Shown: piece after piece, positions 1,919 to 62,980 of the stretch
Layout of the letters: each line of letters opens with the position of its first letter
Numbering within the stretch: position 1 is the stretch's first letter
Assembly (NCBI GenBank): GCA_964035015.1
Contig: OZ036001.1
Span: 14,442,422 to 14,506,421, forward strand
Source: Corallium rubrum
Taxonomy: Eukaryota; Cnidaria; Anthozoa; Scleralcyonacea; Coralliidae
Length of the DNA: 64,000 nucleotides
Direction of reading: 5' to 3'
Position numbers and translations under genes: made by a program
Notes under the pieces: generated by a model
Told to the model about the DNA's origin: nothing
What the model saw: only the letters and a program-made list of their open reading frames with translations
The model's database searches: none

Positions 1919-2488
1919 ATCTTTGACAACAACGGCAAGTATCTCAGGAATATAAATTGTCTTGACCCGAATGGGGAATCATTTTGCCCATATGACGTGA
2001 CCGTTGACGACGAAGGTAACATCATTGCGCTGGATCGAGAGAAGGGGAAAGTGAGAATTTACAAAAAGGATCAAATTATGCTGGAGTTTGGCGACGTTGG
2101 GACAGGTGATTGCGAATTTATCAATCCATCGTACATTGCTGTGAATAAGAACCGTCATATTATTGTAAGTGACATGGGCAATGACAGACTTCAAGTCTTG
2201 ACCAGCGCTGGGAAGCTTCTATTCAAATTCGGTCAAACTGGCATGGCTAATGGCGAATTCCGCTGGCCGACTGGAATTGCTGTTAAAATGAATGGCGATA
2301 TCGTCGTGGCCGACTCGTGCAATAATCGTATACAAACGTTCCGTGCCGATGGCACTTTCGGCTCTAGTCGTGGACCATCGGAGTGTAGAGAAGACGATGT
2401 GTTGAAATTGCCTGAGGGGGTGGCTGTAGACGAACATGAAACCATCTTTGTCGCTGACTGGGGCCATAACCGCGTTCAAATTTTGTGA
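1919..2488 (+). CDS. NHL-repeat beta-propeller protein, terminal exon (TRIM2/3/71-like)
   Basis: An open frame of about 189 codons follows a splice acceptor (TTTTTTTTTGAAAACTAG, ending at 1918) and ends in TGA at 2486-2488. It contains at least three NHL-type blades: VDDEGNIIALDREKGKVRIY, then NKNRHIIVSDMGNDRLQVL, then KMNGDIVVADSCNNRIQTF, and a closing DEHETIFVADWGHNRVQIL. The last blade ends at the stop, as in TRIM-NHL proteins, where the propeller is C-terminal and binds RNA or protein partners. The family also usually carries RING, B-box and filamin domains; none is seen here, so the 5' exons lie left of the window or the gene is a fragment. The frame is undamaged. TRIM2/3/71-like is a family-level guess; other NHL proteins are possible. 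Confidence 0.8.
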   Translation: MFDNNGKYLRNINCLDPNGESFCPYDVTVDDEGNIIALDREKGKVRIYKKDQIMLEFGDVGTGDCEFINPSYIAVNKNRHIIVSDMGNDRLQVLTSAGKLLFKFGQTGMANGEFRWPTGIAVKMNGDIVVADSCNNRIQTFRADGTFGSSRGPSECREDDVLKLPEGVAVDEHETIFVADWGHNRVQIL

Positions 2489-3821: not shown

Positions 3822-4055
3822 TAACACGTTGCTAAGCGGAAACTGCAACGTTACTAAGGCCAAACGGTATTGTTTCAATCTGAAACGAGTGCCAAATTTT
3901 CAAAGCAAATGTGGGCATGTTTATAACTCATCTTTATACACAATTAAATCTTCGTCAAGTGAAGCTAAGAACACCACAGTGCTTTTCCGAACGGCCATTA
4001 CGCTGACAAACCCCACAAACGCGACCATTCTATTGCCTATTGTATCAACAAGAAA

Positions 4056-6182
4056 AAAATTAAGAAACCGAAAGTATGTTACAAAGAATTTCGATCATTA
4101 AAACACTTTGAAGCCAGAGCTTTTCAAAATGACCTCCAGAATGTCCCATGGGATGCAATAAAACCCTTTGATGATATTGAGGATAGTTGGAATGCATGGA
4201 AATGTCTGTATCTTGAAGCATTGAACAAGCATGCTCCAATTAAAAGAATAAAGATCCGTCAAAAAGGGAAACCCTGGTTTGCATCAGATCTACATGCTAT
4301 GATCATCCAGAGAGATAAGATTTTTAAAAAAGCGTCAAAGTCAACAAACGAAAAAGAGAAGAAAAATCTATGGGAAGGCTATTTGGCGATGCGGAACAAA
4401 ATTAAGATTTTAGTTAAGCAAGCTAAAGCCGAATATTATAATCGGTTAATTAAGGAGAAAAAACAATGTCCTAGAGAACAATGGAGAATCATAAGACAAG
4501 TTTTTCCATCATCCAAGCACAGTTCAAATTTCCCTGAATGTGACGATACGAAGGCCTGTGCCGAAAATTTCAATAAATATTTCACTAATATAGGCGAAAA
4601 AATACAGTCGGAACTCGGATCAATGGGTAACGAATTCAACTTCCCCTTTAATGTCACATCTTGCTTTGAATTAAATCAAGTTGCACAATCCGAAGTAGTG
4701 CAGATTATCTCAAGTTTATCCAGTGATAAAGCTACTGGTATCGATACTATTGACATTAGGACGTTGAAGATAGCGGTAGGCGTTCATTCCGTACTGGAAT
4801 CCATCACTTATTTAATTAACCTCTCGATAGAACAGTCTGTCATACCTGCAGAGTGGAAATCAGCTGTGGTAACTCCAATTTTTAAAAGTGGTGATAAAAA
4901 TATCAAATCGAATTTTCGACCGATTTCAGTTCTTCCTATTTTATCGAAGGTGTTGGAGAAATTGGTATGCAAACAGTTGATAACTTATCTAAATGAAAAC
5001 TCTTTGCTATATAAATTTCAATCAAGTTATCTCAAGGGTTTTTCTACGATCACGGCTTTGACCTGTATAACGAATGATATGTTTAATTCAATGGAAAATA
5101 AAGAAATCACATTACTTACTCTATTAGATCTTAGCAAAGCCTTTGACAGTCTGGATCACAGAATGCTTGTGGACAAGCTCCATAAATATGGTATTACCGG
5201 CACACCTCTAAAGTGGTTTACAAACTATTTGGCCGACAGAACACAATGCGTAAAGATTGGTTGCACAAGGTCAGATCCTTTGAAAGTAATCTGTGGTGTC
5301 CCTCAAGGATCTGTTTTAGGTCCTATTCTTTTCATACTCTACATCAATGAATTGCCGGAAATTCTTGCTCAACACTCTATTAATAGCGGATGGGAACCGT
5401 CAAATTTACATCTTTATGCCGATGACCAGCAATTGTATAAAAGCTGCCGGGTCTCAGAGTTGAACGAGTCATTGAATCAGATGAGATCGGAGCTTATACA
5501 TATAAATGATTGGCTGATTGCAAATAAATTGAAACCAAATGTTGGAAAGTATAAATTTCAAATCACTGGAACAAAAAACCAACTTTCAAAAATAAATGAC
5601 ATCGAACAGATTAAGTTGGACATTGGTGAAGAGTGTATCAGGCCGGAGGACACTGTAGTCAATCTGGGTATGACGCTCGACCAGCATCTTTCATGGAGAC
5701 CACACGTCGAGAGGCTCTGGAAAGAAAGTATTGGTAAACTTCGGCAACTGAAATCAATTCGTGAGTGCATGCCCAGAGAGACTTTTAAAGATCTTGTAAA
5801 CTGTGTCGTTTTGTCTAAAGTGGAATATGGCAACATTGTCTATGGTAATGCTAACAAGGGTGTTCAAGATATTGTGCAGAGAATCCAAAATGCAGCTGCA
5901 AAAACTGTAACTAAGTCAAGAAAGTTTGACCATGTAACACCTTTACTAGACGAATTAAATTGGCTTCGTATGTCTGATCGTTGTTACTTGCAGCGTTGTT
6001 CCCTACTTTATAAATGTTTAAATGGAGATGGTCCAACATATCTTTCGGACAAATTAATACCTTTGTCATATAAGCACAATTATCGAACAAGATCGGCGGC
6101 AAATGGACACTTGACCATTCCCAAGCCACGTACGAACAGTAAAATAATTTTAAGGCCAATTTTAAGTAACCATTATAAATAG
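4056..6182 (+). CDS. LINE reverse transcriptase (partial ORF2)
   Basis: The frame is open from about 4056; the first ATG is at 4221 (653 codons from there), but homology-like sequence starts earlier (AFQNDLQNVPWDAI), so the ATG is not the true start. RT landmarks follow in order: DKATGIDTIDIRTLK, the fingers motif FRPISVLPILSKVLEK, LTLLDLSKAFDSLDH (first catalytic Asp), GVPQGSVLGPILFILYINEL, and LYADDQQLY (the catalytic YADD box). A C-terminal LGMTLDQHLSWRPHVE and NAAAKTVTKSRKFDHVTPLL thumb region of the CR1/L2 type completes it. The RT frame has no internal stop, so insertion was fairly recent. The N-terminal endonuclease is lost, so it cannot retrotranspose alone. Confidence 0.9.
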   Translation, partial: KIKKPKVCYKEFRSLKHFEARAFQNDLQNVPWDAIKPFDDIEDSWNAWKCLYLEALNKHAPIKRIKIRQKGKPWFASDLHAMIIQRDKIFKKASKSTNEKEKKNLWEGYLAMRNKIKILVKQAKAEYYNRLIKEKKQCPREQWRIIRQVFPSSKHSSNFPECDDTKACAENFNKYFTNIGEKIQSELGSMGNEFNFPFNVTSCFELNQVAQSEVVQIISSLSSDKATGIDTIDIRTLKIAVGVHSVLESITYLINLSIEQSVIPAEWKSAVVTPIFKSGDKNIKSNFRPISVLPILSKVLEKLVCKQLITYLNENSLLYKFQSSYLKGFSTITALTCITNDMFNSMENKEITLLTLLDLSKAFDSLDHRMLVDKLHKYGITGTPLKWFTNYLADRTQCVKIGCTRSDPLKVICGVPQGSVLGPILFILYINELPEILAQHSINSGWEPSNLHLYADDQQLYKSCRVSELNESLNQMRSELIHINDWLIANKLKPNVGKYKFQITGTKNQLSKINDIEQIKLDIGEECIRPEDTVVNLGMTLDQHLSWRPHVERLWKESIGKLRQLKSIRECMPRETFKDLVNCVVLSKVEYGNIVYGNANKGVQDIVQRIQNAAAKTVTKSRKFDHVTPLLDELNWLRMSDRCYLQRCSLLYKCLNGDGPTYLSDKLIPLSYKHNYRTRSAANGHLTIPKPRTNSKIILRPILSNHYK

Positions 6183-27000: not shown

Positions 27001-30000
27001 GCGGTCAATATGTCAAGTCTCTTCGCCTTTAATTACACAGCTTCATGTTTATGAACGACGTGTGCGATTGTAAGTGTATATAATAATATCAAGATACTTG
27101 CCAGCGACATTACTGCCCAATAACTATGTCTAAACAAACAAAACACATCCGAGACGAGAAAGCTCACTCACTTACTCAGTCGAAAAGAAAGAAGGCACTG
27201 GTCAACATGCATGGGTCAGTTAGTCACATGGCTCAGTTTCGCAAAGCTTATTGGTCAATATCGCCAGCGGCCGCGCAGAGGACTAATAACGCGTCGCAAA
27301 AAAATAAAAATAAAAATAATAAAAAGAATCGCGAAACCTAGACTCGGCTACCACAGGTAGCCCGAGTAATAAACTATTTATTGTCTTCGTTTAAATGGTC
27401 TGTTTTAGTTAAATATCAAAGTATTGTCTTTTATGTGGAACTCTATTTTAAAAAAACGGCAAAAGACAAAGCAGCTATACGTGACCTTCAAACATCGTTT
27501 GAAAGCAAGGTCATAATATAAGCTTATATATTTTACCATAGTTAATAGAAAATATACATGGTTTGGAAACCCGGCAAACTTCAAAGCGGTTAACAATCAA
27601 GCTACGATTCATCTTGAAAGGTACACGAAGGTGCCAAATCCTTTGTTTTAGGTTTATTAATATTTAAACAGTACGGTTGAGTGATTGAAGCCAAACGTTG
27701 CTATTGGATGATTGCTTCATTATACAGAAAACACAATATGTTCAGTAACCATGAAAGTGCAAAAATTCCCATAAACCTGAACAAAAACATAAAACAATGA
27801 CTTTTGTGAGCTTCCAAACCATGTATATTTTCTATTAACTATGACCAAACAAATTTAATCACTTCAGAATTGTTTTTATCTAAGACTCTTATGCTTCTCT
27901 TTACAATTTACATGGGTAATTGAAAGGTAAAAAGGTTATAAATAAAAGATAATTCTCAAAACTTCACCAGCTCACTGACTCGTTGTTGACTTGACTGTTG
28001 ACATTTCAAACTGTCAGTGCGTAGCTGGGACTCCCGTTTATGCGCTCGCTCCGTGTTTAATAAGTGGCTAAAACGTTTCGGATCCGAACGGACCCGCGGG
28101 GGAATGCCTAACAAAATGTGTAAACACTTTCACTTTACAGCGTGATTGACTGTTTGAGGAAGGGTTGTGATATGATGTCCTAAGTGTTTTCCGACATTTA
28201 CTATTTCCATCTGCATAAAATAATACAAGCCTGCTCTCCTCGGATCGACGAAGATTCACTAACCTAGTTTTCCTATCACTAGCTTTCCTTCTGCAACCGC
28301 CAAAAGTTGAAAATTAAACAGTTAATCTGGTCACTTCGAGTTCCAATTGGAATACATTCCATAATTTCCCTCTTTCAATCGCCAAGATCTTTAGTAAAAT
28401 CTTCGCAGACATCCTTATGCTTTTATTTTGTCGTTCAATGTTGTTTACGGTAGATGCATGTACTATCTAGTACATGCATATACCGTAAACAACATTGAAT
28501 GACAGAATAAACACTCGAAGGGCCAAAACGATTCTGGGCAGGACTTTTTTTTGAATTTTGCTAGGCCTTCTCGTTTCCAACCTCTTCCTTGTCTTCCCCA
28601 ACCGACTACGCGGCCAAGCTCATGGCGGAAATTACCTTCCCACTTCTGCTTCTGTATATAGTTTGTTGTGTATTACTGTATTTCTGTAACCGCTACAGAA
28701 ACGTGAGAAAAATCTAGCGACAAAAGTCGCTTATTCTTGATTTATATTTGTTTGTTGGTATCGATTTGGTAGAAACATTCGTTATATTATGATTAAATTC
28801 CATGAAAGCTAAATTATACTTTTTATTAATATTTTTCGACAAAAAATTTTCCTCACGCTTCAGTAGCGTCTACAGAAATACAGTAATACACAACAAACTA
28901 CAGGAGCGGAGTGGGAAGGTATTTCCATTTTGACTGTAAAAACTGGAGTGACGATAATTATGTGTACGCAACGCTTGATTTGTTTCCAATTTTTTTTTCA
29001 GAAACTTTCGTGATTTGACCAAGTTAATGAGCGAAGAAGACAATTTTGCCGCTTACCGTCAAGAGCTGGATAGTCTAACGAGCCAAGGAAACGCGTGTTT
29101 ACCGTTCCTGGGTGATTTCTTGACCCAGATTGCGCAGACGCAGACGTATCTGGCATGTCGGAAGACGACGCCAGATTCTCCGAAAGACTTGCCTTCTAGT
29201 AATGAAGGTGAAGCTAGTCCTTCTACCCCAAGACCGTCACTGCCTAATGGAAAACTATCATCGTCTAGAGAAAACCGACAACGTAACGGTCTTGCTAGAA
29301 GACGAACTACTCCAATCCGAGAGAATGACGCCCGGTTCTCTAAATCGTCGCCAAATTTGCCAGCTTCGTGCACGAAGATTACCGAAAGAACACCTCACTA
29401 TCGAATGAACCGATTTCGTCGTTGTCGAAGTTGGCAACACAGCAACGACAGCGGTATTCAAGTAAATAACAGCGATAACTCTAGTTTATCAGCGAGCTCG
29501 AACTCATTTCAGACCAGTAACACGTCACTGGGAAGCCAGACGCTCGGTTTTCATACGAAACCGGTGACGAACGACGAACGACTGTTTACTAATAACTCAA
29601 ATTCGTCGAAACACCGCGATCTTGGGCGCTCGAGTTCGACAAGCACGCCCATCTCGATTCGGAATTCCGTGAAAGTGAAACTTCGTCGAAACAGAAGCGT
29701 TTCCGAGAAGTGTTTGTCAGTCTCGGAGAGCGGTTCAAATCTGAGAACGAGGATGTCGTTTCTTCGCTCGTTTCGTCGAAGTAAGAGCATGGACCAGGCT
29801 CCATCGAGCGAGAGTATTCAGAGATTGTATGCTTCGAAAACAGAAAATGGAGGATCCCCAGGCAAGTCACCGGAAACGAAAGAAATGTGTAAAAAGAGTA
29901 GATCAGAACACAGTGCCAGTGACGAATCAGGTACGTAGACTGATTATTTTATTTTATATTTTAACGATCAACCACGAGGAGCCGTTTATTATCTGATTAA

Positions 30001-39102: not shown

Positions 39103-41930
39103 CTAACTCTCAGAATCTCTGAGGTAAAACCTACGGAATGTCCTTTCATTAGACCAGTCGGCCATACACAAGATCTCATTTACAGGGATTCCGTTTTTAT
39201 AAGCGTCGGATACCGAAGCACCACGCACACTATTTGCTTTAAATATGGAGACATCAATACCTGCGTTAGATAAAACACACTTAATCCACCTAGCAATAGT
39301 AGATGAACACACAGGTTTGTGCGGTTTACAATAGGATAGAAATAATTTAGAGACAAACCCGCTATCTTGCTGCCTTAAAGCTGTGGTACGAGATATATAT
39401 GCCTGGACATGCGATTTAGGGCACACCGATGGCTCAGACGTTAACATCGGAAACACTACTTCAAGTGATCGGCCCGGCCGAGAAGTCTTTAATAGTTCAG
39501 CTATTTTAAAGTTCAACGACTGTGGATATTCACGCATGAAAGTCAAATCTAAAGCACACAAAGTCTGCTCCCGCTGAGCAGATGCTAAGGCACACAACAT
39601 TACTGTCTTCAAGGTCAACATCTTTAAGGAGAGTTGTTCTGGAGGAAATTGGGTCTCCAAGTAGGAGGTAACAATACGTATATCCCAGGTAGATGAATAT
39701 CGCGGAACGGGCGGTCGCAAACGATAGATTCCCTTGAGCAATCTAGTGATAAGTGGATGAGAACCAACAGTGACATGATCACTTGGACATAAAGTGGAAG
39801 AAAGGGCTGACCGATACGTATTGATAGTACTATAACTCTTACCATCAGAGAAACAGTCTGCAAGAAAATTTGCTATTTGGTCGATAGACGCCTGAAAAAT
39901 ATTGATGTTCCATTTACGACACCAGCTACACCATTTCGTCCAAGGCGGCACTGTACTGTTTTTCGGTTCCAGGGGACCAAGATGCGCACATAAGCTGGAT
40001 TGCGTTTGTAGAAAGGCCGCGGTTTCGGAGGGATCTCCGGACACCATCCAGGCGGCTAACGTCAGCTTGTCTGCTAAGGGATGACGTTCCAGACTGTGGG
40101 GCAAAGTCAGCAGATTGTTCCTCGGCAAGAGAATTGGCCGACGGACTAACAATTGTAACAGCATAGGAAACCATCCTTGGGTTGACCACACTGGGGCAAT
40201 CAAGAGAACTGTGGCTCTGTCGTTGTAAAGCTTTGCTAACACACGAGAAAGTAGACTAAAAGGTGGAAAAGCATAGCATTTAAGATTGAACCACGATATT
40301 TTAAAAGCATCAACAGCCATAGCTCCTGGCTGAGGGTGCCAGGAAACAAACTGTGCCGCTTTGGCATTGAGGCGCGAAGCAAATAAATCAACTTCGGGAA
40401 TAAAAAACAAACGAGTAAGCTGTTGATAAACACTGTCATTTAAAGACCATTCAAGATTGCCCGAAGTATTTCGTGACAAGAAATCGGCCGAAACATTAGT
40501 ACGACCAGGTATATGTTGTGCTGAAACATGAATATCTCTGTCAATGCACCATTGCCAAATACTTTTAGTAAGGGAATTTAGATAGGGGGATTTCATACCT
40601 CCCATAGCATTAATGTAGGCTACGGCCGTAGTGTTATCGAGAGCAACTCGCACATGAATTGAACGTTTGCTCGAAACAAATGACTGCAGAGCAAGAAAAA
40701 CAGCTAATAATTCCAAATAATTTATGTGATACGTTGATTCAGTGACAGTCCAACGCCCACTGGCCGAGTGATCTTCATAAACGGCACCCCAGCCGGTCAA
40801 ACTAGCATCAGATTCAATATATAAGTTGACAGCGGGAATCGCGAAAGAAGTCCCGTTAACAGCAGAAATATTATTAATTATCCAGTGTAGGTCCTCAAGA
40901 GCTTCTTGGCTAAGGACAATTACGTTATCGTAATCGGATTCACTGTTAAGAGCCTCAGTTTTAGATTGCTCTAGGGACCGGTAGTACAAACGAAGAAATT
41001 TAACAGCCGGAAAAGCCGAAACTAAAAGACCAGTGACGTGAGCTACCATGCGAACAGTCGGCTTTGTAGACGAAACTAATTGCTGACATGCAAGAATAAC
41101 TTTTGAAATTTTGTCCTCAGGGAGAAACAGCTTCATTGACACCGAATTAATAAGAAAACCAAGGTAAATAATATTCGAAACTGGTGTGAGGTTTGACTTT
41201 TTAAAATTGATAGTGAAGCCTAGACTTCTAAGCAGAGCTAACGCCTCAGCAAGATGATCGCTACACTGTTGTGCAGAACTAGCAATAACGAGGATGTCAT
41301 CAGTAAACACGACTAAACGTATCCCACGGAATCGCAAAGTTGCGATCACTGGCTTCAAAACTTTTGTAAAAACTCGTGGTGCAAGGCTGTAGCCAAAAGG
41401 CAAACACGTAAATTCGTATCGTTGCCCTTTCCAAAGAAATCTAAGATATTTCCGGTGAGGCTGAAAAATAGGAATGGAAAAATAGGCATCTTTAAGATCT
41501 AAAGAAGCCATAAAATCCCCCGGTTTTATAAAACTGCATGCAAGATTAATACTCTCCATCTTAAAATGAATCTCCTGTACAAAGCTATTCAAGGGTTTTA
41601 AATTAATTACTGGCCTAAAATCACCAGTTTTGTTTGGAACCAAAAATATGTTCGAAATGAATTCGTCTGAGCAAGAAGCCGCAGGTATCACTGCTCGCTT
41701 GTGAAGCAGGTTTTGAACCTCGGCATCAATAGTTTCAAAATCGTGCCGTGAAAAATTTGGTGAACGGGGCAGAGTAGGTTGAACAGGAACGGATTCAAAT
41801 TCAAGATGATAGCCAGAAATAGTCTCGAGGACCCAAGGGTCACTCGTAATCTGACGCCAAATGTCTAGTTTCTTTGCTAGACTACCAGCGACGAAAAAAT
41901 CCTGATTATGAGGACTTACCTGATCTAGGT
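39103..41930 (-). CDS. DIRS polyprotein: RT, RNase H, tyrosine recombinase
   Basis: One uninterrupted frame of over 900 codons on the minus strand; the first standard-length start is a GTG at 41,691, but conserved sequence (GSLAKKLDIWRQITSDPWVL) begins near 41,930, overlapping the gag end. RT: DFRPVINLKPLN, MASLDLKDAYFSIPI, CLPFGYSLAPRVFTK and the catalytic FTDDILV. RNase H: YIESDASLTGWGAV, NYLELLAVFLAL and VALDNTTAVAYIN supply Asp, Glu and Asp. Recombinase: conserved Arg in ALASAQREQTLCAL; FKANSVRGASVSD sits where DIRS proteins have H-x-x-R, so the His appears to be Asn; the nucleophile candidate is the Tyr in FRRFYLR. The intact frame suggests recent activity, though the His change may matter. 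Confidence 0.88.
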
Positions 41931-41949
41931 TCTGTCCTGTTGGTTCCGC

Positions 41950-42486
41950 TGAGACTATGCTCTCGCAGGACTGGGTGATGTGCTCGACAAGTTTTTGCGG
42001 TCGAAATAGTTTGGCTTTCGACCGCGATACCCTAAAAAAGGCGGTTTACGTCCACTCGATTGATTGCGATATGCGGTCTTGCTTTGGTACTCTGTACTTC
42101 CCCTGCTTGAATTGGCACGCACGGTTTTCTTGGATATTTTGTTTACCTCAGCGATGTCCTTGATATGCTTGGGCAACTCGTCACCAAAGAGGTAAGTGGT
42201 TATGGGGGTGGATTTGCTGCAAACGGACCGATAATTCGTGGCGATATCTGGACGTAGGAACTCACGGCGCTTTAAAGAGGTTAAATACGAAGCGTGACCC
42301 AAAAAAGTAACAGCATCAGCCAGCAAAGGCAAAACGGCTGTTTGGTCGAACTGCCCCTTCAGAGCTAGCTCAAAAACTTGAACAACAGGTTGTGCCGCCT
42401 TGATTACCTGGCGTTGAATATGCTGTAAACCAAGATCCTTAGTCTTGGAATTACGTGGTAAATCGTGCCACAGCTTGGGAGGGGGT
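41950..42486 (-). CDS. DIRS gag-like ORF1, 5'-truncated
   Basis: Minus-strand frame with PKLWHDLPRNSKTKDLGLQ, then LADAVTFLGHASYLTSLKRR and TPITTYLFGDELPKHIKDIA, ending in a basic tail (RGRKPNYFDRKNLS). FGDxLPKxIKD followed by a basic tail is typical of the first ORF of animal DIRS elements. The frame is lost upstream of 42,486, where the element is cut. Confidence 0.7.
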
Positions 42487-43854: not shown

Positions 43855-44515
43855 AGTATTGCAGAATTATGCACAGAAAAGGTGCGCAATGCAAAACTGA
43901 GGAATTAATACAGGTGGCCGCTAGAGGATGACTAAAGATACTCACTGGGTCGGTGTGATCAGCTGTTAATTTTACAACAACACTTTATTAGACAATCGTA
44001 TCAGTGCTCTTTCAGATGATCTATATACTTTAAACAAAGTTGCTAACTTTTAACTATAATGATATTAAACGTATATAACGTTGTCTTAAGATCCTCTATA
44101 CTCTACTACAATGTACAGTATTTCTATCACTTACAGTTTAAAATGAAATACTTCTCACTGTCATTTTAGAATTCTTTCGTTCAAAGAGCAATGAAAATGA
44201 AAATTGTGCTAGTAGTGATGATGGCTGGGTAGCGTCCGGCGTCTCATGCAATAAAATACTGCGTCAATGACATATTGCTTTGGGTTCCGTTCATGTTTGG
44301 CCACTTAATCAATACAAGTAAAAGTAACTATTTACCGGGCTAATCTTATGTCATGAAAAAATCTTTCTCTGACTACAAAAAATAATTGCCCTGTGTGCTA
44401 TACTTACAGAAAGACAAACCCAATTTCTCAAATAGTCCTGTAATAAGATTTTCGTGACATAAAATAGCCTGGTAATCGGGCTAGCCCGCCTCCTACACGC
44501 GTAAAAACGCACAAC
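43855..44515. other. Non-coding, no gene recognised
   Basis: AT-rich sequence between family C copy 2 and the minisatellite; nothing recognisable beyond short AT tracts. Confidence 0.4.
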
Positions 44516-44538
44516 TTGTTCACGGTTGTCAACAGGCG

Positions 44539-45671
44539 TGAACAATGTTGTGCTGCTCGAAGTGAACAATGTTGTGCTGCTCGCCGTGAACAATGTTGTG
44601 CTGCTCGAAGTGAACAATGTTGTGCTGCTCGAAGTGAACAATGTTGTGCTGCTCGAAGTGAACAATGTTGTGCTGCTCGAAGTGAACAATGTGTGCTGCT
44701 GGAAGTGAACAATGTTGTGCTGCTGGAAGTGAACAATGTTGTGCTGCTCGAAGTGAACAATGTTGTGCTGCTCGAAGTGAACAATGTTGTGCTGCTCGAA
44801 GTGAACAATGTTGTGCTGCTGGAAGTGAACAATGTTGTGCTGCTCGAAGTGAACAATGTTGTGCTGCTCGAAGTGAACAATGTTGTGCTGCTCGAAGTGA
44901 ACAATGTTGTGCTGCTCGCCGTGAACAATGTTGTGCTGCTCGCCGTGAACAATGTTGTGCTGCTCGCCGTGAACAATGTTGTGCTGCTCGCCGTGAACAA
45001 TGTTGTGCTGCTCGCCGTGAACAATGTTGTGCTGCTCGCCGTGAACAATGTTGTGCTGCTCGCCGTGAACAATGTTGTGCTGCTCGAAGTGAACAATGTT
45101 GTGCTGCTCGAAGTGAACAATGTTGTGCTGCTCGTCGTGAACAATGTTGTGCTGCTCGAAGTGAAAATTGTTGTGCTGCTCGAAGTGAACAATGTTGTGC
45201 TGCTCGCCGTGAACAATGTTGTGCTGCTCGAAGTGAACAATGTTGTGCTGCTCGTCGTGAACAATGTTGTGCTGCTCGTCGTGAACAATGTTGTGCTGCT
45301 CGTCGTGAACAATGTTGTGCTGCTCGAAGTGAACAATATTGTGCTGCTCGTCGTGAACAATGTTGTGCTGCTCGAAGTGAACAATGTTGTGCTGCTCGAA
45401 GTGAACAATGTTGTGCTGCTCGCCGTGAACAATGTTGTGCTGCTCGAAGCGAACAATGTTGTGCTGCTCGAAGCGAACAATGTTGTGCTGCTGGAAGTGA
45501 ACAATGTTGTGCTGCTGGAAGTGAACAATGTTGTGCTGCTCGAAGTGAACAATGTTGTGCTGCTCGAAGTGAACAATGTTGTGCTGCTCGCCGTGAACAA
45601 TGTTGTGCTGCTCGCCGTGAACAATGTTGTGCTGCTCGCCGTGAACAACGTTGTGCTGCTCGCCGTGAACA
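44539..45671. repeat. 24-bp minisatellite, about 47 units
   Basis: The unit GTGAACAATGTTGTGCTGCTCGAA varies mainly at two sites: CTCG/CTGG and the last two bases before GTGAAC (AA, CC or TC). A 1-bp deletion near 44,690 shifts phase; one unit has AATATT and one AAAATTG. Because 24 is a multiple of three and the unit lacks stops in several frames, long open frames arise on both strands (STTLFTSS repeats on minus, SEQCCAAR or VNNVVLLE repeats on plus). No start context, signal peptide or flanking exon supports coding. Confidence 0.95.
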
Positions 45672-45849
45672 AGTTGTCAACAAGTCGTTCACTTATGGTT
45701 CGAATAACTTGTTCACGGATAAACCAACAGTCATGAACAAGTTGCCCCAACAGCACAGTTTTATAGCCAACAACGTTGTTCGCGCATGATACAACATGTT
45801 GTAACAGCATGACGAAATAACAACGATGAACAACAATGCTACAACAGTG

Positions 45850-46045
45850 GTTAAACTATTGTAACTATTTTTACTAAACTATTGTAACTATTTTTAGTAA
45901 ACTATTGTAACTATTGTTACTAAACTATTGTAACTATTGTTACTAAACTATTGTAACTATTGTAACTAAACTATTGTAACTATTGTCACTAAACTATTGT
46001 AACTGATTGTTACTAAACTGTTGTAACTATTATTACTAAACTATT
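45850..46045. repeat. 22-bp tandem array
   Basis: The unit ACTAAACTATTGTAACTATT(G/T)TT is repeated about nine times with length variation. An isolated copy, ATTGTAACTATTGTTACTAA, occurs at 56,399-56,418. Confidence 0.9.
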
Positions 46046-48511: not shown

Positions 48512-49340
48512 CATCCTCGTTCCCAGGGCCTCCTCGGTACACTGGGAAATCGGAGGCCCTGGTCAGATGAAAACCGGATGTCCTAGATTCTAGGACATTG
48601 AGTCGTTGAATACATTCCAGGGTGCATTCCATGTCAACCCCACGCCGAAGATAAGCCACGGGTGTTCAGGTGCTGCGCCAAGGGAGGTCAAGACTCACTC
48701 CAGCGCCGGCACCACCCACTGACTTGTATAGTTGTATGGCTGTATATGTGCGCCGACCGCAGTGTGATTGTGCACCAGCACGCCGAGCACTTTTGAAATT
48801 CACGCCGAAGATCTTCGGCGTGACCTACATGGAATGCACCCTGAAATACATTACATCGCCCTGGGTGCAAGCATGGACATAATATAACGAAACAAACTAG
48901 ATACACTCAGATATTTGAAGAAAAGCTGCTTTATTATGACGTCCGAAAAGTTTGGTGTTTGCTGTTCTTCCCGCTGGACAAAATAATACAATTTCGCTTA
49001 GGTTGTTTACGAACATAATTTGCCGTCGCCGACGAATGAGTCACCGAGTCACGCTACGTCTAAAATTGTTCGATTTTGAGAGTTAACTGATGAAACTCAT
49101 CGCAGTTCCGACTCGCTTTATGAATCCTACTTTGTTGGCTTTATTTGTAGACTTTTTCGGTGTTATCTAAGCGATAATCTTCACTCTATTCACACCGTTG
49201 TTTGACAGTTGAAAATATATTTGCCCACTTCCTGTTTTCGACAATAGCCTTCTTCCAGCCAATCACACGCTTCAATCGTTTTCATCTGACCAGGGCCTCC
49301 GATTTCCCAGTGTACCGAGGAGGCGCTGGGAAGGAGGATG
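48512..49340. mobile_element. Mutator-like element with 9-bp target duplication (829 bp)
   Basis: TIRs of about 62 bp: CATCCTCGTTCCCAGGGCCT..CAGATGAAAAC and complement. CAGGAGCTT flanks both ends (48,503-48,511 and 49,341-49,349). The duplicated bases are codons of the interrupted Myb/SANT-like exon. Contains a nested MITE at 48,619-48,842. No transposase. Confidence 0.88.
48619..48842. mobile_element. Nested MITE
   Basis: CAGGGTGCATTCCATGTCA..CACGCCGAAGAT at the left and ATCTTCGGCGTG..CATGGAATGCACCCTG at the right. AATACATT occurs on both sides, offset by one base, suggesting an 8-bp hAT duplication. Confidence 0.7.
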
Positions 49341-56486: not shown

Positions 56487-56863
56487 TTAGCAAGATGTAT
56501 CTCTTTTCCTGTTCATTCCCGGTTGATGCACGAATGGTTGATAATAATGGAATTCACTTTCCTCTCTAAGTTTTTCTAAATTTAGTTCCTCGTATTCCGG
56601 CGACAATGGAGACGCTGAAGCGTTGGCATCGTCGTAAATAGCAGCATCAGAAACTTGCCGCTCTTCCTCGTTGCCATCAAATCCAATTTGATGTTCTGCG
56701 TGGTTATCATTTTGTCTGTTTCTACGTATCCGCTGCACTCCGTATAACGAACAAATTCCAATGATAAGTCCAGCAATGGCAGCGATCAATATAAAATAGA
56801 AATCAGTCCCATTTGTCTCTTGTTTACCAGAAGAAACTAACGGTGGCTGGGAGCACGTTATCA
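56487..56863 (-). CDS. Ig receptor, last exon (TM and cytoplasmic tail)
   Basis: Acceptor TTACAG; encodes ITCSQPPLVSSGKQETNGTD, the membrane helix, and a tail containing SPEYEELNLEKL and SEFHYYQPF. YEEL is a Y-x-x-L tyrosine motif, but the residue two before Tyr is Pro, so it is not a strict ITIM. IYDDANA is a second possible phosphotyrosine site. Confidence 0.75.
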
Positions 56864-59800
56864 CTGTAAGTCAAACAAAAAAATTGATTGTGTGAAAATT
56901 GAGTTCTTAACTCTCTACGGTTACTGTAATAATACTCGCGTTTCATTGAAGTGTTCGTCATTCACTTGGCTTAATTAATATAGGAAAGGATTTGCCCATT
57001 TAGGGCGTTGCTGTGATGTTGTGTAAGGTTTATTTCAGTTTGTTGTTATTTGCTTGCAAAACTTTACCATTGACAAAAAAAAAACATATATGAAAATAAT
57101 TATAACTGATTCAAGTCATGCATGTTACAATATACTAATTTGTACTTACTTTTTGAAAAACTGCGAGATAATTGTTTCTTATATTTTCCCAAGTTATTCC
57201 AGGCAGTACATGTATATGTTGTATTACTATTTGAACTACAGTTGCGAATAATGGCGACACCATTTAGCATTCCTTTAATTTCCAAGGTATCCGAATAGAT
57301 TGCATAGTTTGGTTTTGGCTGTCCTTCGGCATGACAAGTTAATACGATTGAGCCATTGTTGGAAATAATGGCATAGAAAAAAATTATTCTTGGTGAATCT
57401 AGAATAATTACAAAAAAAATAAGTGTTAGGAGGTTTATAAAGTGCCTAATATTTGGTCTAGTATGATTTTTGGATATATAATCTGAAATTAAGTTTAAAT
57501 AGCGTTATTCGTTTCTCGGATACGGGAGTAGAAATCTACTAACGCGTTTCCAAACATTATGCGATTTAATTTTGAACTAAGTTGCATAGTCAAGAAAATA
57601 TGGAAAACATATATATATATACCACGTCCTAAAAGATTGGCGTCTTCAGGAAAACACAGCAAAAACCTCAACGTAATAAAATTGATCTTTCTCAAGACGA
57701 AAGAAAAGGGAAACTTTCACTCGAAGATATATTTTCAGTGGTCGAGAAAATATGAAAAACTTAAGCTTACCTTTATTAATAGTGACTTAGTCTTAGGGGC
57801 CGTATACATGAATCCGGATTGAGTTTCAATCCGGATTGAACTCATTCCGCTTCCGATCAAACCCCTTTATCTGTTTACATGAATCCGGATTGAGATTAGC
57901 TCATTCCGGATTGAGTTCAATCCGTTTCTCATTCCAGATTGAAATCTCATTCCGGATTGAAATTTCGTTCCGGAATCATGTAAACACGGTGCGAGTTTAT
58001 TGCGGAATGAAAAACGTGACAGAGAGGACTAGAACAAACAATGCATGCGTGTTTTCTAATATTTACGGATTTCAGGCGACAGGTGGATTTCAATCCAGAA
58101 ACCCAATTCCCATAAACACGGACTGACTTCGCTTTTCAATCCGGATTCATGTAAACGGCCCCTTAGTACGGAAGTTTTTATATACCTCCGAGTTTATTCT
58201 TGCTGCCCTTTTTAGTTTCCATTTTCATAACAATCACGATTTCTCCTCAGTTTTTCTTTCTGTTCCTTCGAAAGTACTAACTGATCCAAAAAGCGACTTT
58301 CTTTATTCTCGTCCAGAGATTCTCGTCAATAATAAATGATTTCGCAATACAGTCAACTCTCGTTATAGCGGACACCCTGGGGACCGTCATTTAGTGTCCG
58401 TAATAGCGAGAGTCCGTAATAGCGGGTGCGATGAAAATATCCCAATTTTAGGTTGTAAAATGCCACAACAATGTATTACTGCTTTTTGCTTTAAAATGTT
58501 CAGTTTATTTCAACTTGTAGTTGAGGCTTACTGTGATACATGCATGAGTGCAAAGTACAAGTCAAAATACAAGTAAAAAATTGTATTTAAATATTTTTTA
58601 TTCCAACCCAAAAATACAACAATATAAATCAGTGTCAAATGTCTTTTCTTTCCTTCACCGCGAAGGTACAGTAACATAGGTAAAATAAGAGTATCTAATA
58701 GGAGTATCTCATTAACTGAAGCATTAAAGCATAAACTTACAAAAAGTTCTATTTCGTGATGAAGTACCTCTCTAACGTGCTTTGATGTGATCTTTCGTTC
58801 ACGGCATTCTCACTTACTTTATCCTCAAGCAGAGAAAACTCGTTTGCAAGTGTGAATTTGCCGCGCTGAAGAAAGAAAAGCTCTATGTCCCGTACGCTTT
58901 CAAGAACTTCTCGACAACTCTTCAGCCTGCTCGTTGGAGGACTTTCATTTTCGTCTTCACCAATATCACTTTCATCATCACCATCACTCTCGAGAATGAT
59001 CGTGTCTTGGTCGCTAGTATTGAGTGACTCTAGCAGCTGTTGTTCGTTGACGTCGGCGTTGAAGCAAACGGGGAGTTCTTCGTCTAACTCTAGGTATATT
59101 TGCGATGTAACGCTGCTTCCAGATGCAACCACGTCTATGAGACCTTGGAAATCATCATCAAGATCAGCAAAAGGATCTTCGTTTTCATCCCCATGTGTCT
59201 CGCTAATGTTGCTCGAGAATCCTGCTGCAACCTTGCACCAAGCACTTCCCATCCAATTCATGGCTTGTAGCACATTCAGGGTATTGCTTATTTCTGAAGC
59301 ACTGGTGTGTTCACCTGTGGCCATGGCAATGACGTGACGTAGCAACAACTTTCTGTAGTGAACTTTAAAGTTCTGAATGATTCCCAAATCTAGTAGAGGC
59401 TGCAGCTCTGATGTGCAGTTCACTGGAAAAAATACCAGCTTGAGGAGGCTATCAAGGCAACAGTTAATCGTTCTTTAGATTTATTGCCACCTTTGCACTT
59501 CTTCGCTTTTTCTGATAAGCTTTTGTCAGGTAGAGCAGGGAAAAAACAGCCTGTTTCATCAAGATTCCAAACATCTCGAAGTTCATAACCAGCTGTTATT
59601 GCACTAAGGCGCTCTTTCCACGAAGAAACCGTAGCTACTGATACATCTGCAGATTCGCCACAAACCTTGTGCTGAGAAAGGTTGTGTCGTTCTTTAAACC
59701 CTGTCAGCCAACCGCTCGAGGCCTTGAAGTCAGCGCAGCCTAGCTTCTCTGCAACTTTCGTCGCAAATTCTTGGATCAAAGGACCATCAATTGGAATTCT

Positions 59801-61291
59801 CCGCTCGGTATTTTTCTTGAACCATTCCCAGACAGCGTCATTTAAATCGGCGTATTGAGAAGTGCGATTTCGCTTCTTTGACTCAGGACGACCGGTCTCG
59901 TAGGCTACTCTTCTCTCACTCTCTCCTTATCTCTGATAATGTTACTGACTTCCGTCTTCCTACACGAGTAGTTCTCGGCACGTTTGCGCACTCCAATTGA
60001 ACCACCGCTTCCTTCATATTCTTCGAAAATCTGAAATTTTTGTTTCAAAGTCAACTCATTCCTTGCTTTCTTAGATTTGCCTTTAGGCATGTTAAAGTTG
60101 TGAACACATTTATGAATGACTATTCACCACTGTCACTGACATAATATGCTTTAATTATAATTGAGTGTGTTTTTTGAACTTTGTTCGCTACATGACACCC
60201 GACACGACACGTTTGTGAGCTTGAAACGGCTGGATAGCTACAAAGATCTCCGAAATACTATACAAACACTAATAAATCCATGGCAAGTCAGCAAAAGTGT
60301 GAAGAATGCAAGTCGTATTATTCTTGGTTCAGAGGCCACCATGCTTACAAAGACGTATTTCAGCCTGAAATTAATACGATTCTGGCGCTTCAACGTGAAC
60401 CGGAAAGTGCCAAAGATCCACATGCTGTGGCCATAACAGAACATGAAGGACGAGTTGTGGGGCACATTCCTTTAGGTTTATCTAAAATTGTCTCTCCATT
60501 TTTGAAAAGAGTGAATCACAGAGGAGAAGCTGTCATTTGTGGAAAGAGAGTAAACAGAGGAGCTGGCATGGGTTTGGAGATTCCCGTTCTTTACAAATTG
60601 TATGGTGAACACAAATATTTGACAAGACTTAATGAACTTATTATGGGCAGTGATGTGACTAGACAGTCCTTGCGAGCCAAACAAGAAGGAATATCGAGTA
60701 CGGCAGAGGCTACTCGAAAGCGCAAGTCTGGCAAGAACATTGAAACGGCAAAAAAAAAATAAAAAAAACTCGAAAGTAGTGTAAATAAAGCGGGAAAAGA
60801 TCGGAACAATCAATATTTTTCTGTTTGTCAGTTTTGTCGACAGAAATGATGACGCATGGAATCTTCAAAGTACTTCCGCTGATAAATGGAAACAGTAAAA
60901 TATGTCACTGTATAAATTAAAAAGTCATTCAGTTTCATATTGTGTCCAGAGAAAAATACGTCCAAGGTGTCCGTTGTAACGGGAGTAGAACAATAAAAAT
61001 ATTTGTTGGGGACCACATGAGGTGTCCGCAATGCCGTAATAGCGAGAGTCCGTAATAGCGAGAGTTATTTCAATACATTTCATAGTAGTTTCAGCCGGGG
61101 ATTTACAAACTGTCCTTAATAGCGGGGTGTCCGTAATAGCGGGGTGTCCGCAAGGCGAGAGTTGACTGTATTAAAGGACTGTTTATTTTGCTATCGTGAT
61201 CACTAAATTATTTTAAACTGATGTTGACGTCAGCCAATCAATTTCCGGTGCCTCATATTGTTACCAGTCCCCACAAATTTTTACGGCCTAA

Positions 61292-61354
<63 letters not shown>

Positions 61355-62167
61355 TCAAATCTCTTAACATCTCCTCCTTGCTTTTTCTACACGCGGGTAA
61401 AATGGACTCCACGCGTGTTGAGATTAGCACCGTCACCGGGCTCCAGACCTTCGGCGCTACGCCCGGGCCAGGAGATTACCCAGGTCAAATATATGTAATC
61501 GAAAGAGATTTTATACAGTCGAATCAACAATTACGGCAATTTTTTTGAAGTTGTCCAACGTTGAAAATCAACGTTGTTTCCAACCTCGTACCCAGGGTCT
61601 TTGCGAGCGGAGATAAGCCCCTGGATACGAGGTTACGTTGTTTCGATGTACGCAGTTTCAATTGTTCAGTTGTGTCAATATCGACGTTGCTTTAACGTTA
61701 AAACAACGCGTTGTTTCGACGTTAATTCGAGGTCGCATATCAACGTCGAAGAGACGTCGAAATTTCGACGTCGATTCGATTTGCGTTTTCGTCCACTCTT
61801 TCAACGTCATTTCGACGTCCAAGGACGACGTCGAATAGACGTTATTTTGCCTACTGGGAAGGCTTATGAGCGTTTATATTTATCAATTACTTACACTGAA
61901 CTGTAACTTCAATAGATTTTTCAACAATCAAAGTGTATAGCTGTGCTTGACATATGTAGGTGCCCGAGGCATCTTTTCCAACATTGCTCAAATAAAGTTG
62001 TTGATCACCATCTGTACTTGGACCACTTATATTCTGACCACTCTTTATCCAGGTTGCCGTTGGGAAAAAGTGAACACTGACAGCTTTACACCGACAAGAA
62101 AAGTTGTCATTTTCCTTTAATATTACGTTCTGGGAACAATTTACTTGTGCTTTAAGATGAAGGTCGT
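56487..62167 (-). CDS. Immunoglobulin-domain transmembrane receptor, 3' half (three exons)
   Basis: Minus-strand exons 61,895-62,167, 57,150-57,398 and 56,487-56,863 (stop). All junctions are phase 1, the classic arrangement for exon-encoded Ig domains, and splice sites are consensus (GTAAGT donors). Exon A: an Ig domain with FSCRCKAVS, TATWIKSG and DASGTYICQAQ, the Cys, Trp and D-x-x-x-Y-x-C set. Exon B: a second, thinner Ig domain with VLTCHAEGQPKP and TYTCTAWNNLGK. Exon C: a short stalk, one membrane helix (FYFILIAAIAGLIIGICSLY), a basic stop-transfer (RIRRNRQ) and a cytoplasmic tail of about 75 residues. Upstream exons and the signal peptide are not in the window. Probably a cell-surface adhesion or immune-type receptor; ligand unknown. 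A Tigger transposon lies in the intron between exons A and B. Confidence 0.75.
57150..57398 (-). CDS. Ig receptor, second Ig exon
   Basis: 249-nt phase 1-1 exon. DSPRIIFFYAIISNNGSIV precedes LTCHAEGQPKP. The core Trp appears to be Tyr (PNYAIY). It ends with TYTCTAWNNLGKYKKQLSR before the donor. Confidence 0.7.
57796..58162. mobile_element. Harbinger-type MITE (TTA target duplication)
   Basis: Termini GGGGCCGTATACATGAATCC and complement (GGATTCATGTAAACGGCCCC). Inside are many CAATCCGGATTGA repeats. TTA on both sides (57,793-57,795, 58,163-58,165). Inside the Ig receptor intron. Confidence 0.88.
58749..60090 (-). pseudogene. Tigger/pogo-type transposase, internally deleted
   Basis: The start MPKGKSKKARNELTLKQKFQ begins a psq-type helix-turn-helix (EVSNIIRDKERVREE). 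A frameshift near 59,900 moves to ESKKRNRTSQYADLNDAVWE and KLGCADFKASSGWLTGFKER, the CENP-B/Tc5 HTH. WNLDETGCFFPALP holds the first catalytic Asp of the DDE domain. After VALIAS the sequence jumps to FFPVNCTSELQP followed by LLDLGIIQNFKVHYRKLL, which normally lies about 110 residues further on. The second and third acidic residues are therefore deleted and the frame is shifted. The C-terminal part (58,749-59,423) has a long acidic region and ends HQSTLERYFITK, typical of Tigger. Cannot catalyse transposition. Confidence 0.85.
60091..60279. promoter_or_regulatory. Divergent promoter between transposase and HIRAN gene
   Basis: The two start codons point away from each other across 189 bp, so both genes must be driven from here or from overlapping 5' UTRs. 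No TATA box is assigned. This is inference from gene arrangement. Confidence 0.4.
60280..60762 (+). CDS. HIRAN-domain protein carried by a Tigger transposon
   Basis: Intact 160-codon gene. After a short CxxC-containing start (MASQQKCEECKSYYSWFRGH) comes a complete HIRAN domain (residues about 18-110): GHHAYKDVFQPEINTILALQ, REPESAKDPHAVAI, RVVGHIPLGLSKIVSPFL and GMGLEIPVLYKLYG. R-E-P-x-x-x-x-D-P-x-A-V-A-I and G-x-I-P are the family landmarks. HIRAN modules of HLTF/Rad5 proteins bind 3'-OH single-strand DNA ends at stalled forks; stand-alone HIRAN proteins are poorly characterised. The C-terminus is basic (TRKRKSGKN..TAKKK), a likely nuclear signal. No SF2 helicase follows. It lies within the TIRs, opposite in direction to the transposase, so it is a passenger or second transposition factor. 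Role unknown. Confidence 0.88.
   Translation: MASQQKCEECKSYYSWFRGHHAYKDVFQPEINTILALQREPESAKDPHAVAITEHEGRVVGHIPLGLSKIVSPFLKRVNHRGEAVICGKRVNRGAGMGLEIPVLYKLYGEHKYLTRLNELIMGSDVTRQSLRAKQEGISSTAEATRKRKSGKNIETAKKK
61292..61352. repeat. (TA)n microsatellite
   Basis: About 30 dinucleotide units. A similar short array is at 62,525-62,548. Confidence 0.95.
61540..61862. repeat. CAACGTTG/TTCGACGT-rich repeat with an inserted palindromic mini-element
   Basis: Dense copies of AACGTTG, TTTCGACGTCGA and CAACGTC-type words, ending GCCTACTGGGAAGGC. The mini-element at 61,581-61,634 sits inside it. Confidence 0.65.
61581..61634. mobile_element. Palindromic mini-element with 10-bp target duplication
   Basis: AACCTCGTACCCAGGGTCTT.. 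and ..AGCCCCTGGATACGAGGTT are arms as at 8888-8934. ACGTTGTTTC at 61,571-61,580 and 61,635-61,644. Confidence 0.8.
61895..62167 (-). CDS. Ig receptor, first Ig exon in the window
   Basis: 273-nt phase 1-1 exon (acceptor CTTTTCAG, donor GTAAGT). DDLHLKAQVNCSQNVILKEN leads into FSCRC, TWIKSGQNISG and DASGTYICQAQLY. Canonical I-set-like Ig domain. Potential N-glycosylation sites at NCS and NIS. Confidence 0.75.
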
Positions 62168-62980
62168 CTGAAAAGAAAGAAGATCTTCTTGATTTTGGCC
62201 AAAAAATACCTGGGTTTCCCATTTCTTTGCGCAAAAACTTAGGCACGGTAGCTGGTTGGATTTTTTTGTTTCCTTTTATTTATTTAGTGTCCAGGCTTGA
62301 CAATAATATTCTTTCCAAAACCAAATTTCAATTACCGTAGTACATCTATTAAACCAATGCAGTTTGAGCACATTACTATAGATTCTGCCGCAATGCTTGC
62401 TATCCCAAGATGCAAATCATGCTGCAACTCGGGCCGACACTCCTCTAATATTCAATAAAAAGATTAGGGTCGGCATTTTGTTGGCCAATAACTAGGTATA
62501 TGATCGGGAAACCGAAAACACAGATATATATATATATATATATATATTATTTGCTAGTATTGTAAGGTTTTTCAATCGGAGAATTGTATTCAACTAAAAC
62601 GCTATGGTCGACTATAAATATAGGATCTTCCATTGGAAGAATCTTCGGAAACAGTGTAAATAGCGATAATTCTGAAATGGTTATCAAGCAAACAAGCTGA
62701 AATACAATGTAAAGAGAAGAATTGCTAAACTTATTGACTTTAATCTTGATTTAGTATTTGAATGCATGGTTTAACTTGATTAGTTTGCTCTCAAGAGTAT
62801 TTTCTGATATACTCGTCACAGTTAGAGAATAGTTACACACACTCGGCCAATCCCTATCGGGTATTCCAACGCTCTATATTCCATAGTGTTTTGATTCATC
62901 AAGATTAGACATACCAGTGAGCTCTATATAGAGTCCACTGCAAAGATATTTTGTTTTCTTTTCTCACAGCACAGTGAGCT
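62168..62980. other. Non-coding upstream of the Ig exon
   Basis: No exon recognised. 62,917-62,980 carries GTGAGCTCTATATAGAG followed by CCACTGCAAAGAT and TTTTGTTTTCTT, repeated directly at 63,484-63,548. Confidence 0.5.

Follow-up and report, generated by a model that had tools for sequence, protein, structure and literature searches.

A Tigger-type element with a divergent HIRAN gene

We analysed a stretch of 64,000 nucleotides from the genome of Corallium rubrum (contig OZ036001.1, positions 14,442,422 to 14,506,421), hereafter called the window, in which positions are counted from the first base. It contains a Tigger-type element of 2,819 bp (58350–61168) with both ends defined, within which the remains of a minus-strand transposase gene and an intact plus-strand gene for a HIRAN-domain protein diverge from a short common space. 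The ends are formed by exact terminal inverted repeats (TIRs) of 13 bp, CAGTCAACTCTCG, at 58350–58362 (plus) and 61156–61168 (minus), which have no other exact match in the 64 kb; the likeness between the two ends extends over 28 and 27 bp, with 24 of 28 columns identical. A third match to CAGTCAACTCTCG at 49077 carries two mismatches and was rejected as a sign of a further TIR copy, as it lies within chance (shuffled sequences gave on average 0.9 matches at no more than two mismatches). Both flanks carry the dinucleotide TA, and the element thus has the TA target-site duplication and short TIRs of Tigger/pogo elements. In cnidarian Tiggers, TIRs range from 8 to 24 bp (PMC9219625).

The features of the element are as follows, with the basis for each in brackets; P0061 is the best relative of the transposase, a predicted protein of 537 residues.

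58348–58349, no strand: TA, left target-site duplication (sequence)
58350–58377, plus: left TIR, the first 13 bp of which equal the right end (TIR comparison)
58395–58427, plus: left subterminal repeats of GTCCGTAATAGCG, at 58396 and 58412 (repeat search)
58749–59474, minus: transposase piece 3, from the end of DDE_1, in which the third catalytic D lies (LQPLLDLG), through the C-terminal region as far as the stop (Pfam DDE_1, E 7.1e-10; P0061 residues 300–537)
59420–59926, minus: transposase piece 2, with HTH_Tnp_Tc5 and the start of the catalytic domain, including the first D (WNLDETG) (HTH_Tnp_Tc5, E 1.7e-16)
59908–60090, minus: transposase piece 1, with the start codon and a CENP-B_N-like region (CENP-B_N, E 0.0014, under the cut-off; P0061 residues 9–63)
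60091–60279, no strand: space of 189 bp between the divergent start codons (coordinates)
60280–60762, plus: undamaged HIRAN gene of 160 codons plus stop, with a basic C-terminal tail (Pfam PF08797, E 5.6e-10; structure model with fold match to HLTF HIRAN)
61023–61141, no strand: right subterminal repeats, GTCCGTAATAGCG at 61048 and 61129, with variants (repeat search)
61142–61168, minus: right TIR (TIR comparison)
61169–61170, no strand: TA, right target-site duplication (sequence)

An earlier note on this DNA had proposed a Tigger/pogo element with matching TIRs at TA sites, a CENP-B-type transposase on the minus strand and a complete HIRAN protein of 160 residues on the plus strand between the TIRs, diverging from a gap of about 190 bp. 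The TIRs, domains and coordinates bear out this description throughout, with the reservation that the CENP-B_N match itself falls under the Pfam cut-off. The subterminal GTCCGTAATAGCG repeats, present inside both ends, are possible transposase binding sites, and the space between the start codons is predicted to be a two-way promoter, which we regard as probable.

The HIRAN protein is one of a multi-copy family

The match of the protein to PF08797 scored 39.4 bits (curated cut-off, 24.7) and was its sole Pfam match at E ≤10, so that neither the SNF2 ATPase nor the RING domain that accompany HIRAN in HLTF was detected. Its predicted structure has the HLTF-type HIRAN fold, at an identity of 17–21% to the HIRAN domain of HLTF. 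Database searches retrieved 59 close matches, the largest cluster of which holds 278 sequences and the named members of which are stony corals, and 778 matches in the broader HIRAN family, of which 120 were listed. All 85 rows of the resulting HIRAN alignment match PF08797 at E ≤0.1. A chance open reading frame (ORF) was rejected on the combined grounds of Pfam profile, fold and family membership, and the idea that the gene was recently captured from HLTF of the host is unsupported, the identity to HLTF being so low. The positions equivalent to N91, D94 and H110 of HLTF are kept in 98, 98 and 96% of the 85 rows, respectively, a conservation that may be structural.

The transposase gene is decayed

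The transposase is spread over three pieces in three frames, recovered both by Pfam and by tblastn with P0061, which is intact and carries PF04218, PF03221 and PF03184. Together the pieces represent the domain set of a Tigger/pogo transposase (CENP-B-type N-terminus, HTH and the C-terminal part of DDE_1), and named relatives are annotated as 'tigger transposable element-derived protein 4/6-like'. In P0061, the three catalytic residues D178, D284 and D317 are invariant in an 11-row alignment, and the last two are separated by 32 residues (DD32D), within the 29–36 of Tiggers. Compared with P0061, the window transposase changes frame around residues 61–63 (break near 59908), and an internal deletion near 59440 has removed the counterpart of residues 219–299, including the second D. 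The first and third D are kept, with one Leu inserted before the third, and there are further small gaps. The earlier note had described the gene as frameshifted and lacking two catalytic residues; the broken frame stands, but only the second D is lost. Judged on its DDD triad, the window copy is a dead member of its family and, with the second D missing and the frames broken, it cannot make a working transposase of its own. Sequence comparison thus identifies the element as an internally deleted, non-autonomous copy, movable only by transposase supplied from elsewhere, of which the HIRAN frame could still be expressed.

A similar loss was seen in P0063, a transposase predicted in another organism (eukprot): alongside its near twin P0062 it is short of about 40 residues, among them the second catalytic D, so that a relative, too, has lost an internal stretch spanning this residue.

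HIRAN and transposase relatives share two long contigs and show comparable clades

The search for transposase relatives gave 223 matches, of which the best 120 were listed. We compared the length in bases of the longest contig of each match between 130 HIRAN and 117 of the 120 listed transposase matches, and found exact coincidence in four cases among the matches listed. Two of these concern contigs of at least 10 kb (1,353,505 and 237,903 bases), compared with 0.003 expected; the other two, below 10 kb, carry no weight because 0.76 would be expected there.

Phylogenetic analysis, with both trees rooted at the midpoint, placed the window sequences in comparable positions. The HIRAN tree, built from 85 rows by a careful method, puts the window protein in a 37-row clade (support 100/99) with four subfamilies. 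In the transposase tree, built by a quick method with Shimodaira–Hasegawa-like approximate likelihood-ratio (SH-aLRT) support only from the window and those 115 of the 120 listed matches that reach at least 340 residues (116 rows), the window transposase falls in a 14-row clade (support 100), again with four subfamilies, one of which is P0061 alone. The pair on the 1,353,505-base contig lies inside both clades and the pair on the 237,903-base contig outside both, too few pairs for a formal test. Assignment to the nearest subfamily gave 504, 36, 36 and 19 members for HIRAN (82 of the 130 clusters entered, one lying outside; 48, judged to belong to the broad clade, were excluded) and 342, 50, 22 and 11 members for the transposase (17 of the 120 listed clusters, those of the near clade), where the assignment of P0066 differs from its placement in the tree. 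Agreement between the two phylogenies had been put forward as a check on the pairing; a comparable clade with four subfamilies was indeed found in each tree, but the likeness of the subfamilies is suggestive only.

Replacements in HIRAN are conservative between subfamilies

Residue replacements in 11 chosen HIRAN relatives were compared with neutral simulation of the window gene (200 runs each), a test biased by the predicted-protein database, which hides broken copies. The replacements in P0009 had a mean BLOSUM score of +0.30, compared with −0.49 under neutrality, and those in P0231 +0.10 compared with −0.66; in neither case did any of the 200 runs score as high. Other distant relatives were also conservative, with scores as high in 0.5% (P0221 and P0242), 1% (P0015), 1.5% (P0010) and 2% (P0031) of runs. 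In P0009 the differences concentrate in the tail (21 of 35 positions) rather than the core (33 of 115). These replacement patterns support, but do not prove, that HIRAN has been kept by selection over long times. The earlier note had offered two roles for the protein, a second transposition factor that recognizes DNA ends or replication intermediates, or a cargo gene under its own selection. The between-subfamily replacements, more conservative than neutral, fit selection, but the binding residues do not discriminate among recognition of 3' ends, antagonism towards the host and a cargo gene, the equivalents of N91 and D94 being kept and that of Y93 replaced.

Proposed role of HIRAN and alternative explanations

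Most likely, then, the two genes belong together, a claim that rests on indirect but mutually consistent evidence, and from the comparisons above we consider it highly probable that this transposon lineage regularly carries HIRAN as its second gene. That it is so and also acts as an accessory factor at the transposon ends is a narrower proposal, to which we would give slightly less than an even chance. In the autonomous form, the divergent genes would encode a transposase of the CENP-B/Tc5/DDD type and a HIRAN protein that stands alone. Cleavage by the transposase would leave ends that are staggered and bear a free 3'-OH. Carried into the nucleus by its basic tail, the HIRAN protein would bind the cleaved ends as an accessory transposition factor and, once bound, may hold or shield them or steer their repair and reinsertion.

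Excision of the Tc1/mariner type leaves short staggered ends. The pogo-superfamily element Passer leaves footprints of 0–4 bp, as in Tc1/mariner elements (PMC9976928). HLTF uses its HIRAN domain to bind a single-strand end with a 3'-OH, and this domain in isolation (a fragment of residues 1–180) acts as a dominant negative that blocks the removal of Cas9 by HLTF (PMC11237066). The HIRAN domain of Rad5 binds PCNA, and its basic patch targets Rad5 to stressed forks (PMC7804152). Given these properties, a transposon HIRAN protein could keep hold of the ends left by excision, protect them against HLTF or couple transposition to replication forks.

Several observations weigh against a conserved second gene that grips 3' ends. 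At the level of binding, the position of HLTF Y93 is replaced in the family, mostly by K, and the window copy has Ser at the N91 position, where 83 of the 85 rows have Asn, so that its HIRAN protein may be impaired despite the open frame; moreover, Rad5 HIRAN binds single-stranded DNA without the need for a 3'-OH (PMC7804152). The earlier note had also made much of an undamaged HIRAN gene beside a broken transposase. The frame is indeed intact, but at the rate of damage seen in the transposase, where about 1,340 bp hold two events that break the frame, a gene of 480 bp would escape by chance with P = 0.49, and the contrast is therefore weak evidence by itself. A common long contig places two genes on the same scaffold and is no proof of the same element. 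Only one element was seen whole, with both TIRs, and no further copy was found by blastn or tblastn (E 1e-3) in 200 kb of the same genome (20 stretches of 10 kb, including 2,500 N, taken within the initial 390 kb of a 96.4-Mb contig). The relatives are predicted proteins, among which broken copies are under-counted. Finally, three of the four near relatives look neutral in their replacements, with scores as high in 25% (P0007), 50% (P0005) and 55.5% (P0002) of runs, the fourth, P0003, giving 4.5%. Conservative replacements in distant relatives beside mostly neutral ones in near relatives would be expected if selection acts on active lineages and single copies drift.

If HIRAN is a regular second gene, it could instead serve against the host, as a free decoy that takes up 3' ends in competition with HLTF and would prevent it from removing the transposase from cleaved ends or reversing forks. 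The dominant-negative HLTF fragment that inhibits Cas9 removal (PMC11237066) speaks for this, and the element protein is likewise a stand-alone HIRAN domain; the identity of only 17–21% to HLTF HIRAN and binding residues that are only partly kept speak against it, and we consider this reading unlikely. Very unlikely, in our estimation, is a tether to forks or PCNA, by which HIRAN would bring the transposase or the element to replication forks and let it gain copies by moving during replication, as the PCNA binding and basic-patch targeting of Rad5 HIRAN (PMC7804152) and the basic tail of the element protein might suggest.

Two further explanations dispense with a role in transposition. HIRAN may be a cargo or relic in the lineage: a single ORF is the rule among complete Tiggers (PMC9219625), and such a transposase thus needs no HIRAN, and the neutral-looking near relatives would fit. 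Conservative replacements between subfamilies, the concentration of changes in the tail and a core conserved across 85 rows speak against a mere passenger, which we hold to be quite unlikely. Alternatively, a HIRAN gene, or another element bearing one, landed by chance inside a single Tigger copy, as might be supposed from one element seen whole and the lack of a second copy in the 200 kb sampled. Such nesting appears highly improbable in view of the common long contigs and parallel trees, the close divergent arrangement, in which 189 bp separate the starts, and the element itself, which shows no further set of TIRs among the 25 of 60 inverted pairs listed. In tblastn searches of the 64-kb window with seven proteins, HIRAN and transposase matches lay only inside the element.

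Genomic surroundings

Ig-domain exons on the minus strand flank the element at 61890–62279 and 57103–57504 (Pfam Ig_3 and Ig_2, above cut-off), and the element therefore probably lies in an intron of one receptor-like host gene, to which the transposase would be sense and HIRAN antisense. At 56490–56870 (minus), a transmembrane-like segment with a cytoplasmic tail, probably of the same gene, was recognized by eye, with no Pfam match. Just left of the element (57800–58158) is a cluster of direct and inverted TTTACATGAATCCGGATTGA-like units resembling a miniature inverted-repeat transposable element, and about 125 bp to its right is a long run of TA dinucleotides (61294–61354), TA being also the target site of this type of transposon.

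Elsewhere in the window, an ORF of 737 residues at 3969–6179 (plus) encodes a reverse transcriptase (RVT_1, E 4.7e-27) and resembles a long interspersed nuclear element in its layout. Another of 980 residues at 39106–42045 (minus) carries RVT_1 (E 6.6e-22) and a weak RNase H; its end reads by eye like a tyrosine recombinase, and we presume it to be a DIRS-type element. On both strands, a repeat array at 44351–45855 has more than one open frame (ORFs of 367–475 residues), and an ORF caller would accordingly report several false long genes there. NHL repeats at 1919–2485 (plus; E 9.2e-25) and the end of a RasGEF domain at 28979–29935 (plus; E 7.1e-07) are likely host exons.

Relation to known systems and significance

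Two-gene DNA transposons are familiar from PIF/Harbinger, cut-and-paste elements in which a small Myb-like DNA-binding partner helps the transposase; the likeness is in layout only, transposase and partner both being unrelated. Ciliate TBE and Tec elements, of the Tc1/mariner group, likewise carry ORFs beyond the transposase, but their hosts are ciliates and HIRAN is not mentioned in the available part of the source (PMC7325037). Pogo elements measure 1.2–5.2 kb, with one or two ORFs encoding transposases and, in Tiggers, a spacing of DD29–36D (PMC7386202), and complete Tiggers mostly have a length of about 2.8 kb and TA sites (PMC9219625). The window element agrees with Tiggers in its TA target, short TIRs, length of about 2.8 kb, CENP-B_N/HTH_Tnp_Tc5/DDE_1 transposase and the DD32D of its intact relative, and differs in its second, divergent HIRAN gene and in its broken transposase. 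From HLTF and Rad5, its protein differs in standing alone with 160 residues, without SNF2 ATPase or RING, in the position of Y93, which is unkept, and in being encoded by a transposon. The earlier note knew of no description of this pairing, and our search of the literature, mostly without subscription journals and without Repbase, likewise found no paper on it among those listed, judged by title and opening of the abstract. For HIRAN proteins that stand alone, we know of no established function in animals.

Should HIRAN prove a regular second gene, pogo/Tigger elements would gain a second protein with a DNA-end-binding fold that is understood biochemically, and both the handling of ends by such elements and the countering of host HLTF would become askable. 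Tentatively, and with somewhat less confidence than in the accessory role itself, we envisage an old lineage of two-gene pogo elements in animals, whose own HIRAN protein would grip the 3' ends at excision or keep HLTF off them, a module of replication-fork repair being put to use in transposition; the broader HIRAN family would then consist largely of transposon proteins annotated as host 'HIRAN domain-containing protein'. If the gene is regular, some coral entries under that name would be transposon genes.
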